A stretch of 42,777 nucleotides of DNA from Ignavibacteriota bacterium (lineage in GTDB: Bacteria > Bacteroidota > Ignavibacteria > UBA10030 > SZUA-254). Below, piece by piece: positions 38,958-42,777 of the stretch. The notes below the pieces were generated by a model. It saw only the letters and a program-made list of their open reading frames with translations, was not told the DNA's origin and made no database searches. Each line of letters starts with the position of its first letter. The stretch's first letter is position 1. The stretch is taken from assembly GCA_016212665.1 (NCBI GenBank), contig JACREZ010000029.1:1-42777 (forward strand), read 5' to 3'. The translations under genes and the position numbers were made by a program.

Positions 38958-39812
38958 TTATTTGAGGCGTTGGAGTTTCTCGATAAACTCCTCGGCTTCG
39001 CGTCCCTTCAATCCTTTACTCTCAAGAAATTCTTTTGAGAGGGGTTGAGCAGGTAACAGTTCTTTGAGTGCGTTCAATTCAAGACGGGTAAACCGTTCTG
39101 ACTTCAACATGTAATCTTCAAACGCTTCCCATGCGAGCGGGACAACTGCCTTCGTTATCTCTGCCATCGCTTCGGCATAAACGCGGATTTCGTACTGCGC
39201 GTGCGGGTCAATCCGCAAACGGAGGAAGTGAAACAGGTTGTGCAAATCAATCTTCCAGTACCACTCGGTATAAAGAGAAAGGGGAAGATTGATGCGGGCA
39301 AGTTCGCGGGCAATATCCGACTCAAGCAATTGCTCATACTCAGTAAACAACTCTCGTTGTGTTTCGGTCAGAATGTTGATAACATTTTGCCGTAGGTCTG
39401 CCGGGACTTCCTCTTCCCGTCGTCCCTGTTTATTCATCAGACTTTGAAAATGAATTGCTTCATGTTCCGGCACATAGAATTCATCCTTCATCACCGAATA
39501 TCTGCCTGAATATTCATTAACGTTCGCTGTCCGGTGACGAATCCATTGCCGGGCAACAAAGATAGGAAGTTTCACATGGAATTTCAGTTCGACCATTTCA
39601 AACGGAGTGGTATGAAGATGTCTCATTAAATACCGGATAAGTCCCCGGTCTTCGTTCACCGATTTTGTTCCTTTACCATACGAGACCCTCGCCGCCTGAA
39701 CGATGGATTCATCTCCTCCCATAAAATCCACAAGCCGGACGAATCCGGCATTCAAACATTTGAATTCTTTATCGAGTACTGCTTCTGCTGATTGATTGAC
39801 TACGTGTGCCAT
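38958..39812 (-). CDS. thyX: FAD-dependent thymidylate synthase ThyX, 284 aa
   Basis: Makes dTMP from dUMP using FAD and methylene-tetrahydrofolate, independently of ThyA. The ThyX signature RHRTANVNEYS (R92 to S102, the RHR-x7-S motif) binds flavin and substrate, followed by GRYSVMKDEFYVPE. Downstream LYTEWYWKIDLHNLFHFLRLR is also typical. Length is slightly above average. A promoter is seen at 39836-39863. The gene lies between the dcw cluster and the CRISPR locus with no functional link to either. Confidence 0.95.
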   Translation of the reverse strand: MAHVVNQSAEAVLDKEFKCLNAGFVRLVDFMGGDESIVQAARVSYGKGTKSVNEDRGLIRYLMRHLHTTPFEMVELKFHVKLPIFVARQWIRHRTANVNEYSGRYSVMKDEFYVPEHEAIHFQSLMNKQGRREEEVPADLRQNVINILTETQRELFTEYEQLLESDIARELARINLPLSLYTEWYWKIDLHNLFHFLRLRIDPHAQYEIRVYAEAMAEITKAVVPLAWEAFEDYMLKSERFTRLELNALKELLPAQPLSKEFLESKGLKGREAEEFIEKLQRLK

Positions 39813-39835
39813 TGCTTTCTTTTATTTTGCGTGCA

Positions 39836-39863
39836 AATATACTGGAACTGAGTCAATATTCAA
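39836..39863 (-). promoter_or_regulatory. Sigma-70-type promoter of thyX
   Basis: On the minus strand TTGAAT (39863-39858) and TATATT (39841-39836) are 16 bases apart, placing the start of transcription about 20 bases before the thyX ATG. It lies within the 63 bases between thyX and the first CRISPR repeat, so any array leader must share this space. Confidence 0.6.
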
Positions 39864-39875
39864 ACAGGTGGGGTA

Positions 39876-41062
39876 GTTGTAGTTTGCTTTCAAATTTTGT
39901 TCTACATAGATTTGCACCAGTTAAGTTTTTCGCTTCCTGCGCCGTAGTAACGTTGTAGTTTGCTTTCAAATTTTGTTCTACATAGATTTGCACCAGTTCG
40001 ATAAGAGATAACACGTCAGACATAGCAGTTGTAGTTTGCTTTCAAATTTTGTTCTACATAGATTTGCACCAGTGCAAGGCAATCAATAAGCCCCATCTCC
40101 ATTGTTGTAGTTTGCTTTCAAATTTTGTTCTACATAGATTTGCACCAGTTTCCTCGACCAACTCCAAATGGCTATTGTAGTTGTAGTTTGCTTTCAAATT
40201 TTGTTCTACATAGATTTGCACCAGTTTATTTTATTCTCTTTCCCTAATTTTACATGTTGTAGTTTGCTTTCAAATTTTGTTCTACATAGATTTGCACCAG
40301 TTCCGAGCGCGTTGTTTGGGTACGTCGCATCGTTGTAGTTTGCTTTCAAATTTTGTTCTACATAGATTTGCACCAGTTGCCATGCCAAAGGAGAAGCTTA
40401 ACACATAGTTGTAGTTTGCTTTCAAATTTTGTTCTACATAGATTTGCACCAGTGCGATGCCGTCCCACCGCTCTCCAACATACGTTGTAGTTTGCTTTCA
40501 AATTTTGTTCTACATAGATTTGCACCAGTCACCTTGCCGATCGTTTCCGTTTATTGTTAGTTGTAGTTTGCTTTCAAATTTTGTTCTACATAGATTTGCA
40601 CCAGTCTAAAGAAGTAATATAAGAGGCAAGGTAAGGGTTGTAGTTTGCTTTCAAATTTTGTTCTACATAGATTTGCACCAGTTGTTCCACTCTTTAGGTT
40701 TGTCACCTTCTAGTTGTAGTTTGCTTTCAAATTTTGTTCTACATAGATTTGCACCAGTACAGATGCTTGACCTGATTGAGACGGCGCTGTTGTAGTTTGC
40801 TTTCAAATTTTGTTCTACATAGATTTGCACCAGTCGAAGGACACAGACATGACGACCACACAGAGTTGTAGTTTGCTTTCAAATTTTGTTCTACATAGAT
40901 TTGCACCAGTCTACAGTGGGGAATGGGACGAGGGCTCATAGTTGTAGTTTGCTTTCAAATTTTGTTCTACATAGATTTGCACCAGTTTGCAATTTGCGCT
41001 CCACACCGTAAACAAAGTTGTAGTTTGCTTTCAAATTTTGTTCTACATAGATTTGCACCAGT
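39876..41062 (+). CRISPR. CRISPR array, 16 repeats of 46 bp and 15 spacers
   Basis: Repeats start at 39876, 39952, 40028, 40104, 40180, 40256, 40332, 40408, 40484, 40560, 40637, 40713, 40789, 40865, 40941 and 41017. All 16 appear identical: they begin GTTGTAGTTTGCTTTCAAAT and end GATTTGCACCAGT. Fourteen spacers are 30 bases and the tenth (40606-40636) is 31. Long 46-47-bp repeats beginning GTTGT with the TTTGCTTTCAAAT core are typical of type II-C systems in Bacteroidota, matching the neighbouring cas1 and cas2. By that comparison the crRNA sense is the plus strand, which makes the array convergent with the cas genes. There is no degenerate end repeat to show which end is oldest. No spacer obviously matches the rest of the window by eye. 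Confidence 0.98.
39884..39912 (+). promoter_or_regulatory. Promoter-like sequence embedded in each CRISPR repeat (first repeat shown)
   Basis: Within every repeat, TTGCTT (repeat positions 9-14) and TAGATT (32-37) are exactly 17 bases apart. The same bases also fit the Bacteroidota promoter form TTTG then TAnnTTTG (TAGATTTG at 32-39). Transcription would begin about at the last bases of the repeat, so each spacer could be transcribed from its own promoter. Known precedent is the Neisseria type II-C array, whose repeats carry promoters. The match is moderate and unproven. Confidence 0.45.
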
Positions 41063-41071
41063 ATAGGTTCT

Positions 41072-41100
41072 GCTAATCCCATATACTATATGGGATTAGC
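41072..41100. other. Perfect 13-bp inverted repeat next to the last CRISPR repeat
   Basis: GCTAATCCCATAT (41072-41084) and ATATGGGATTAGC (41088-41100) form a perfect 13-bp stem with a 3-base loop, 10 bases past the array. It has no T tract, so it is not a terminator by itself. Confidence 0.7.
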
Positions 41101-41117
41101 GGATATTCAGAACAACA

Positions 41118-41164
41118 AAAAAAAAGAAATCCCGACCATGTATCAGCCGGGATTTCTTTTTTTT
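41118..41164. terminator. Bidirectional terminator between the array and cas2
   Basis: A 17-bp stem (41118-41134 with 41148-41164) starts with eight As and ends with eight Ts around the core GAAATCCCG/CGGGATTTC, with a 13-base loop. It can stop the plus-strand array transcript and the minus-strand cas operon, whose cas2 stop is 12 bases away. This supports the view that the two converge. Confidence 0.9.
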
Positions 41165-41175
41165 CCGATAGGTTG

Positions 41176-41505
41176 TCAGAACATCTCTAATTGTTGTGGG
41201 GGAGGTTTGGCATCTACGGGGTCTTTTCCTTCAAATATTTCCATCATCCCGAACTGTTTATCGGTAATCCGGAGTATCCCGATTTTCCCTTTGGAGGGAA
41301 GAAACGACTTTACACGCTTGATATGGAGGTCTGCCTGGTCGTGGCTCATGCAATGCCGGACATAGATGGAAAACTGAAACATATCGAAACCGTCTTTCAT
41401 CAATTTCTTTCTGAATTGGGTATACACTTTCCTGTCTGTTTCGCTTACAACCGGCAAATCAAAAAAGACAAGCACCCACATAATTCTATACTCATTCAGG
41501 CGCAT
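41176..41505 (-). CDS. cas2: CRISPR-associated endonuclease Cas2, 109 aa
   Basis: With Cas1 forms the spacer integration complex. The start MRLNEYRIMWVLVFFDLP is typical of type II Cas2; Asp16 in FFDLP is the conserved residue of the ferredoxin-like fold. RVKSFLPSKGKIGILRITDKQF and a C-terminus QLEMF also fit type II-C. It overlaps cas1 by 14 bases, so translation is probably coupled. Confidence 0.95.
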   Translation of the reverse strand: MRLNEYRIMWVLVFFDLPVVSETDRKVYTQFRKKLMKDGFDMFQFSIYVRHCMSHDQADLHIKRVKSFLPSKGKIGILRITDKQFGMMEIFEGKDPVDAKPPPQQLEMF

Positions 41506-42412
41506 CGTCGGAGGAGTTCCGCTTGGGGAATTCGGGATACAGCATCTTTGTCGCCTCTTTTTTGAAACATTTTACCAAGGAAGCGCATGTCCGGGTAATG
41601 CCAAGTTGCAACGGTTTCCGTTCCTCTTCCATCACTATATCGCCGCCAAGAAAGGAGAGGAGGTTCCGTTTTGTTTCGGGAACAAGGTCTATTACCTCAC
41701 TGCTTTCTTCAATCATTTTCCTTACGATTTCATCCACAAACGGACGGTACGGCTCCATCAAATCATCGGCAAGGCTGAAGGAGTTGTACTTGTTTTTATG
41801 ATGGATACCGAGCGCAGGATGCATTCCTGAACTGACAATTCCCCGCGCAACACTTGCCCGAAGCACGGCATATCCGTAATTCAACAAATGGTTGGGAGAG
41901 AGACCTTCCGGGTCTCTCGTAAATTCGGGAAGTGTTGGGAAGACCCGTTTCCAATAAAACGCTGCGGCTCGTCCTTCATAATTATCAGGGTCGCCGGAGC
42001 GGACTTTGGAAGCATAATGTTTCATCGGCTCAATATCAACCTTGATGTGTTCCAGCACCGCCGCCTGATTGAGAATTTTTTGCTTGATAGTTTGTTGCCA
42101 GAGTTGTTTCCGTAATGGGAGCGATGATTCCATTTGCGCCCGAAGGATTTCTGCATGAACCGAGTTTGCTGAAATAGGCAACATTACGCCGCTCGGATGG
42201 TGCGTCTTATCGCATGTGATGATGATACCCTCGTTGGCAAGAATTGCATTCAACACAGAATCGGTTACGGTAATTTGCCAGTGGTCGAGCATCAACACAC
42301 CGATGTCCTCAATCGGCACAGAGGATTCTTCTTCATCCCGCTTGATAACAAGTTGGTCGTCTTGTTTTTTCAAGAAAGCGGAATTGTTGATAAGAATCGT
42401 TTTTTTAATCAT
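41492..42412 (-). CDS. cas1: CRISPR-associated integrase Cas1 (type II-C), 306 aa
   Basis: Metal-dependent integrase that inserts new spacers. Predicted metal ligands Glu147 (in YEGRAAAFYWKRVFP), His204 or His205 (in LGIHHKNKYN) and Glu220 (in DDLMEPYRP) are all present, so it looks intact. VLMLDHWQITVT and ITCDKTHHPSGVMLP near the N-terminus are typical of type II Cas1. Its ATG overlaps the stop codon of the upstream cas9 fragment (ATGA), showing they were made as one operon. With cas9 interrupted, its promoter is uncertain. Confidence 0.95.
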   Translation of the reverse strand: MIKKTILINNSAFLKKQDDQLVIKRDEEESSVPIEDIGVLMLDHWQITVTDSVLNAILANEGIIITCDKTHHPSGVMLPISANSVHAEILRAQMESSLPLRKQLWQQTIKQKILNQAAVLEHIKVDIEPMKHYASKVRSGDPDNYEGRAAAFYWKRVFPTLPEFTRDPEGLSPNHLLNYGYAVLRASVARGIVSSGMHPALGIHHKNKYNSFSLADDLMEPYRPFVDEIVRKMIEESSEVIDLVPETKRNLLSFLGGDIVMEEERKPLQLGITRTCASLVKCFKKEATKMLYPEFPKRNSSDDAPE

Positions 42413-42639
42413 CCAATAATTTCTTTTTTAATAATATTGCCAAGAATATCAATTTCTGCTCTAACACAACATATAGTGTTAGGTACTTTCTGAATAACTA
42501 AAGGTGGTTCTGTTTTCCTATCATGCTTCATGTCCAACTTAGAAGCATACAAGTAGCCAAAAACAATAATGCCATTTACATCAAATTTAATAACCCTAAA
42601 TAAATTATTAACTAAATACTCTTTGTCGTTCCAATCGAG
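42409..42639 (-). pseudogene. cas9: C-terminal 76 codons of cas9, cut off by an insertion sequence
   Basis: Directly upstream of cas1 and overlapping its ATG by 3 bases, an open frame of 76 codons ends in TGA at 42409. It begins just after two in-frame stops (42640-42642 and 42646-42648), so no start codon is available. The sequence includes LVNNLFRVIKFDVNGIIVFG and ends VRAEIDILGNIIKKEIIG. The pattern of a LFRV-KF strand and a final V-R-x-x-I-x-x-x-G-x-I segment matches the end of the PAM-interacting domain of Bacteroidota-type II-C Cas9. The operon position (cas9-cas1-cas2) is exactly where cas9 is expected. The remaining roughly 1000 or more residues may lie beyond the insertion sequence or be lost. 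Confidence 0.75.
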
Positions 42640-42683
42640 TTATATTCAAAAGGTGTGTAAATATTTAGGGTAGAAAAACCAGA

Positions 42684-42712
42684 TTGAAAAAAAAGCGGCG
42701 TATCTGTATCTT
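42684..42712 (+). promoter_or_regulatory. Promoter of the putative transposase
   Basis: TTGAAA (42684-42689) and TATCTT (42707-42712) are exactly 17 bases apart. Transcription would start near 42719, just after the left arm of the hairpin at 42697-42757, so native transcripts would not contain that arm. Confidence 0.6.
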
Positions 42713-42757
42713 AGGAAAATAAATTCACTACAACTTAATAACCTAAGGAGATACGCC
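42697..42757 (+). promoter_or_regulatory. Hairpin that hides the transposase ribosome-binding site in read-through RNA
   Basis: 42697-42705 pairs with 42749-42757 (9 bp), then after a 3-base bulge 42709-42715 pairs with 42742-42748 (7 bp including one G-U). The loop is 26 bases. The right arm contains the whole AAGGAG ribosome-binding site (42745-42750) and ends one base before the ATG. Insertion sequences such as IS10 and IS50 use the same principle to avoid being switched on by outside transcription. Confidence 0.7.
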
Positions 42758-42758
42758 A

Positions 42759-42777
42759 ATGAAAAAATATAAAAAAC
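42759..42777 (+). CDS. Start of a putative transposase (first 6 codons only)
   Basis: An ATG 8 bases after a perfect AAGGAG begins the frame MKKYKK, then the window ends. It is called a transposase only from its context inside an insertion-sequence-like end. The family cannot be determined from six residues. Confidence 0.4.

Follow-up and report, generated by a model that had tools for sequence, protein, structure and literature searches.

The window, i.e., the whole stretch of DNA that was analysed (42,777 bases), is an entire contig, C29, of a draft genome with 45 contigs, 3.91 Mb and 99.65% completeness. Toward its right end, it carries a CRISPR array, the adaptation genes cas1 and cas2, the 3' end of cas9 and one end of an insertion sequence (IS). 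The features were assigned as follows.

39876-41062, plus strand: CRISPR array, 16 repeats of 46 bp and 15 spacers of 30-31 bp, with 16 of 16 repeats identical
41063-41175, no strand: gap of 113 bases between cas2 and the array, with a terminator-like hairpin (terminator scan), probable leader side, partly alike in this genome, G006, G001, and G030
41176-41505, minus strand: cas2 (109 aa), TIGR01573, E 4.8e-20
41492-42412, minus strand: cas1 (306 aa), TIGR03639, E 1e-87
42409-42636, minus strand: 3' end of cas9, cut from its 5' part, 75 codons and a stop, by C-terminal alignment to intact Cas9 relatives and in-frame rejoining with contig C6
42629-42636, minus strand: target-site duplication GATTGGAA, by flank comparison; on C6, the second copy runs up to L006:6004
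42637-42777, no strand: left end of the IS, by recurrence in this genome as the terminal bases of C27, C3, and C37; the terminal inverted repeat starts at 42637
42687-42757, minus strand: hairpin followed by T8, terminator-like toward cas1, -26.5 kcal/mol, z -5.1, none of 200 shuffles as good
42759-42777, plus strand: probable start of the IS transposase, directed away from cas1, suggested by AAGGAG and a following ATG at the contig end

The Cas1 protein was aligned with the solved Cas1 5xvn across 234 residues and showed 53-73% identity to the Cas1 of four relatives. The frames of cas9 and cas1 overlap, as do those of cas1 and cas2, and the cas9 stop and the cas1 start share ATGA. The order is type II cas1, then cas2, and no third adaptation gene (csn2, cas4) was found between cas9 and the array. 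Type II-C systems are without a third adaptation gene such as csn2 or cas4. A tracrRNA was predicted from its anti-repeat on contig C6, on the strand opposite cas9. By its sequence, with Cas9 domains, cas1/cas2 and a tracrRNA anti-repeat each present, the locus is assigned to type II-C. The genome has one cas1. Of two further markers searched, Cas3 gave three matches, all weak and below the cut-off, and Csm1 gave none. Cas1 and Cas2 had been predicted to be intact and the array repeats to be all identical, and the full frames, the two profile matches and the 16 repeats agree with this.

Every repeat (16/16) contains, on the crRNA strand and immediately 5' of the spacer, a Bacteroidota-type promoter pattern, i.e., TTTG, 20 bases, TAGATTTG. 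The pattern had 19 matches in the window versus a shuffle mean of 2.0, and 16 of the 19 were the repeats. A Bacteroidota-type promoter match (39834-39864, minus strand) was also placed immediately upstream of the frame adjoining the array (38958-39812, minus strand), which, by a sequence motif, resembles flavin-dependent thymidylate synthase. Repeat-encoded promoters were proposed earlier for the II-C loci of Flavobacterium columnare and F. psychrophilum (PMC8092290, PMC10309648). A leader at the 39876 end of the array was considered and rejected; the comparison of relatives and the report on F. columnare favour the cas2 side (PMC8092290). In that report, array transcription runs toward the variable end.

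The split cas9 gene and the insertion sequence

The frame upstream of cas1 reads DWNDKEYL...KKEIIG*, and its nearest in-frame stop upstream lies within the IS end. The original prediction described it as the C-terminus of a type II-C Cas9, 76 codons at 42409-42660, and proposed a Cas9 profile search of this fragment as the check. The fragment alone matched no Pfam or NCBIfam model, and alignment with relatives served instead. It could be aligned with the C-terminal ends of intact Cas9 relatives, with 50% identity to the first of these. The identity of the frame was thus upheld by this alignment and by its rejoining with C6, whereas its extent was corrected: 24 bases belong to the IS, and the cas9 frame ends at 42636 with 75 codons.

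In a DNA search of the genome, 42637-42777 was also found at 99-100% identity on contigs C27, C3, and C37, where the copies sit at the very contig end. Because all copies of these last 141 bases are terminal on the other contigs, C29 ends inside a repeated element. A profile scan of the genome with RuvC_III gave one match, on C6, 758 bases short of the end of that contig. This single match is the interrupted gene itself; a second, complete cas9, which would have spoken for another identity of the frame, was not found by the scan. The C6 frame has 1037 aa and matches the Cas9 profile TIGR01865 at E 1.7e-178. The RuvC_III, HNH_4, and Cas9_a domains exceed the cut-off in this part, all upstream of the cut. 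C6 carries 1019 cas9 codons and two bases, then the IS end from L006:6005, and 18 IS-derived residues close the frame. Two cas9 genes overlapping by about 16 residues, one on C6 and one in the window, were ruled out, since the C6 frame runs out in IS sequence.

The sequence GATTGGAA stands directly outside the IS ends on C6 and C29 alike. When the C29 flank was compared with the five right ends, C6 agreed at 8/8 positions and the four others at no more than 3/8. Among the other flanks, agreement at 8/8 was seen for C37 with C28 and for C3 with C30, and C27 and C40 are without a clear partner. The C6 and C29 flanks, minus one copy of the duplication, form a single open frame of 1092 codons, and the insertion point falls between the second and third bases of codon 1020. 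Join offsets that shift the frame run into a stop within about 10 residues. Since offsets by multiples of three leave the frame open too, it is the duplication, and not the frame alone, that fixes the join. Across the junction, the joined gene reads HPDEIDW-NDKEYLVNNLFRVIKFD, where G030 has HPDEIDWNNIEYIRNNIFRVRKFD and G001 has HPDEINWNDIEYIRNNLYRVRKFD; the intact relatives (61-73% identity) continue through it in like manner. The rejoining of two cas9 parts in frame after removal of the IS and one target duplication had been predicted, and it was confirmed with C6 as the other part. The gene had also been described as reduced to a stump by the IS. The interruption was found, but not the reduction: the gene is split, with 1019 of its codons preserved on C6.

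The C6 tracrRNA has an anti-repeat that forms a duplex of -19.2 kcal/mol with the array repeat of the window, and the tracrRNA stretch is alike in five genomes when compared by eye. This pairing assigns C6 to the locus independently of the IS. The link between C6 and C29 is drawn from assembled contigs, by duplication, frame and homology. An assembly artefact or chimera would mean an unbroken cas9 in the organism and two contigs that end in unrelated copies of the repeat. It would suit the breaking off of both contigs in a collapsed repeat, a link drawn from assembled contigs and the partnerless ends of C27 and C40. It is nevertheless extremely improbable, because the 8-bp duplication matches C29 to C6 alone among the five right ends, frame and homology carry across the join, and the RuvC_III scan gave no other cas9 in a nearly complete genome. 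Furthermore, a true assembly break, seen in genome G361, looks otherwise: 12 bases are shared, and foreign sequence is absent.

The IS ends on C29 and C6 are imperfect inverted repeats with TGTGTAAA in common. The end that starts at L006:6005 is also found on C45, C40, and C28, and a 35-base remnant of it on C30, so that the genome has four left and four right ends and the remnant. The C30 remnant (L052:6152-6186) is followed by other sequence, and its flank is the one that pairs with C3; the copy at C3/C30 is probably damaged. A transposase-like end on C6 is oriented to match the start at 42759. Its 35-aa tail matched no family over the cut-off and was found in none of the 293 other relatives (294 searched including this genome). 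PF00872, the IS256-family transposase model, had no match in this genome, and the interior of the IS is absent from the assembly. Elements of the IS256 family make target duplications of 8-9 bp and have inverted ends with TGTGTAAA. The target duplication of 8 bp and the ends with TGTGTAAA are those of this family, and the inserted element is probably IS256-like by its ends and duplication.

The rest of the 1092 codons has no stop or frameshift and the array repeats are identical, so the insertion is probably recent, in agreement with the original prediction. The exact duplication and the undamaged cas9 also mean that precise excision would restore the whole frame, and phase variation through IS256 excision is known in other bacteria. 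A minor or reversible insertion, with whole cas9 in some cells and immunity restored by excision, would fit these points. It is very unlikely, however, as a DNA search of the assembly with 42000-42777 gave a single copy of the cas9 stump, and this copy has the IS attached.

The lost Cas9 C-terminus and the retained adaptation genes

The residues cut off are 1020-1092 (73 residues). A C-terminal profile placed the end of the protein near residues 995-1057 of 9ar4, a solved Cas9 of 1082 residues, in a weak match (E 0.00011). Neisseria Cas9 reads the PAM with residues 1024-1033 (PMC9701194). An AlphaFold2 model, built for an intact relative with five aligned sequences (mean pLDDT 41.1, pTM 0.25), was too poor for domain placement. 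The severed 73 residues are probably part of the PAM-interacting region, and interference is very probably lost. As they likely include PAM-reading positions, target recognition would likely be lost with them. The cell would yield at most a Cas9 of 1037 aa, in which residues 1020-1092 are missing. Lacking this part of the PAM-interacting region, the protein would neither find nor cut targets, and the array would be a memory that is stored and not used.

The adaptation genes have whole frames, and they would be severed from the cas9 promoter and placed behind the terminator-like hairpin. The opposite strand of this hairpin folds nearly equally (-22.3 kcal/mol), and a simple terminator scan with a loop limit of 8 did not list it. 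The pattern TTTG-N17-23-TAnnTTTG had no match on the minus strand of 42409-42777. Five sigma-70-like sites were found in 41000-42777 versus a shuffle mean of 3.9, which is near chance. The putative transposase is directed away from cas1 and antisense to cas9. Expression of cas1-cas2 from the mobile element, as originally predicted, is doubtful. Because of the transposase orientation and the hairpin with T8 facing cas1, it is more likely that the IS isolates cas1-cas2 rather than driving them. Fresh acquisition would then be possible but unsupported, since the genes are cut from the cas9 promoter and stand behind the hairpin.

The 15 spacers showed no convincing match to the genome outside the array (best other E 1.16). 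Eight of them (1, 2, 3, 4, 8, 13, 14, and 15, counted from the 39876 end) were searched as exact 22-mers in viral_contigs, with no match for each. For II-C data of F. columnare, the authors' reading is selection against self-targeting (PMC8092290), and a report on Mycoplasma gallisepticum describes six new spacers after Cas9 loss (PMC11893278). Acquisition free of Cas9 selection would be expected to give self spacers; as none are among the 15, there is no sign of acquisition after the insertion, in a set that is small. The original prediction had the locus holding or even acquiring spacers without interference. Holding agrees with the intact array, cas1 and cas2, whereas acquiring has no sign in its favour.

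A partly functional Cas9 of 1037 aa, with a role in tracrRNA/crRNA binding, regulation or spacer acquisition, would leave the locus altered and not dead. The RuvC_III, HNH, and alpha-lobe domains upstream of the cut and the intact tracrRNA and array repeats are compatible with such a role. It is still unlikely, because the lost part probably holds the PAM-reading positions, the terminator-like hairpin of the IS precedes cas1, and no self spacers were found. The reading with high probability is that an IS with an 8-bp duplication split a type II-C cas9 at codon 1020, and that interference is gone while the adaptation genes and the array were spared.

Broken cas9 genes in relatives

Cas9 matches with E up to 1e-20 were found in 12 of 120 relatives, this genome included. 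The closest Cas9 proteins besides its own were those of G030, G006, G001, and G047, with 65-73% identity, and that at L060, with 61%. The gene is whole in G030 (1094 aa), in G047 (1086 aa) and at L060 (frame of 1096 codons). In G001, a contig of 4.4 kb holds an intact C-terminal part of 713 residues.

G006 is of another genus in the same family, and its cas9 is also broken. Its contigs C52 and C7 each terminate in one end of another kind of IS (L038:6008-6104 and L051:4771-4866; the public record JAGVIE010000059.1 covers the L038 side). This IS has inverted repeats starting with TGATCTT and a 3-bp duplication, TAC. Without the IS and one duplication, the frame has 1084 codons, and of the four duplication lengths tried, only 3 works. 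By alignment, the insertion lies 11 codons upstream of the one studied here. The two insertions are independent. The array remnant in G006, read by eye, has a single spacer, with one repeat and part of a second, and there is one repeat core in a stretch of 4.9 kb. In G030, where cas9 is whole, the array meets an IS end (L037:8478-8602) and then the contig stops. This IS end shows 86% identity over 85 bases to one of the G006 IS ends, which makes G030 a third genome, with the G006 type of IS in its array.

At the level of the phylum, 395 genomes were surveyed, and type II cas1 (E up to 1e-40) was found in 58 genomes at 59 places, this genome included. All 58 other places were examined with up to 4.8 kb upstream. 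Cas9 was not found upstream of cas1 at 9 of the 58. At 46 of the remaining 49, an open frame of 1029 codons or more matched a Cas9 profile at E 6e-88 or better; six of these frames exceed the fetched stretch, and their starts were unseen. Broken Cas9 was found at three of the 49, in G202, G361, and G291. G202 has 649 C-terminal cas9 codons after non-cas9 sequence at the contig start (L140:1-105), and the N-terminal half was not found in its genome. G361 was set aside as a plain assembly break, with its shared bases and a frame slip at an A-run. G291 was set aside as well; its frame breaks in a one-contig genome, and sequencing error is possible. Cas9 cut by foreign DNA is uncommon, with G202 and the present genome as the cases in the survey.

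In this uncultured Bacteroidota group, Cas9 loss through IS insertion close to the C-terminus, sparing cas1-cas2, might be recurrent and favoured or reversible, with immunity off and the memory and recording genes kept. Such a reading would draw on the two genera hit by different IS at sites 11 aligned codons apart and on the array IS of G030. It has little probability, and two cases, G006 and this genome, do not establish a hot spot or selection.

Comparison with known systems

The locus is a clean natural example of Cas9 lost with adaptation genes and memory kept. Together with G006, in which one spacer is left, it is suggestive of stages through which a type II-C locus decays. In draft genomes, intact cas1-cas2 and a clean array do not equal working immunity, and contig ends within cas9 deserve a check for IS. 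Biologically, the event is ordinary, as this type of damage is known in print.

In F. psychrophilum CN46, a type II-C locus has taken insertions of IS982 and IS256 (PMC10309648). The likeness includes a Bacteroidota II-C locus, 46-bp repeats, the order cas9-cas1-cas2, and IS with target duplications; the same report gives truncated Cas9 in some strains of the species and proposes the repeat-encoded promoters mentioned above (PMC10309648). In CN46, however, the IS occupy the tracrRNA-cas9 interval and the array itself, and Cas9 is reported as active, whereas here cas9 is split (PMC10309648). The F. columnare locus is likewise II-C with a proposed repeat-encoded promoter motif, but that report has Cas9 intact and spacers gained in the laboratory, in contrast to the split gene of this genome (PMC8092290). 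In M. gallisepticum, two of four truncated Cas9 forms are without the last 79 or 120 residues and are inactive per the authors (PMC11893278). Those losses, followed in dated isolates of a single species, came from point mutations and a frameshift, whereas here an IS was responsible, in one genome and with no sign of new spacers (PMC11893278).

A search with narrow phrases, in which subscription journals were poorly covered, found no publication on cas9 split by an IS. The present locus is a well-supported new case, and IS damage to CRISPR loci and Cas9 loss are already published (PMC10309648, PMC11893278). Beside these known systems, the independent insertion in the sister genus is the most interesting addition.
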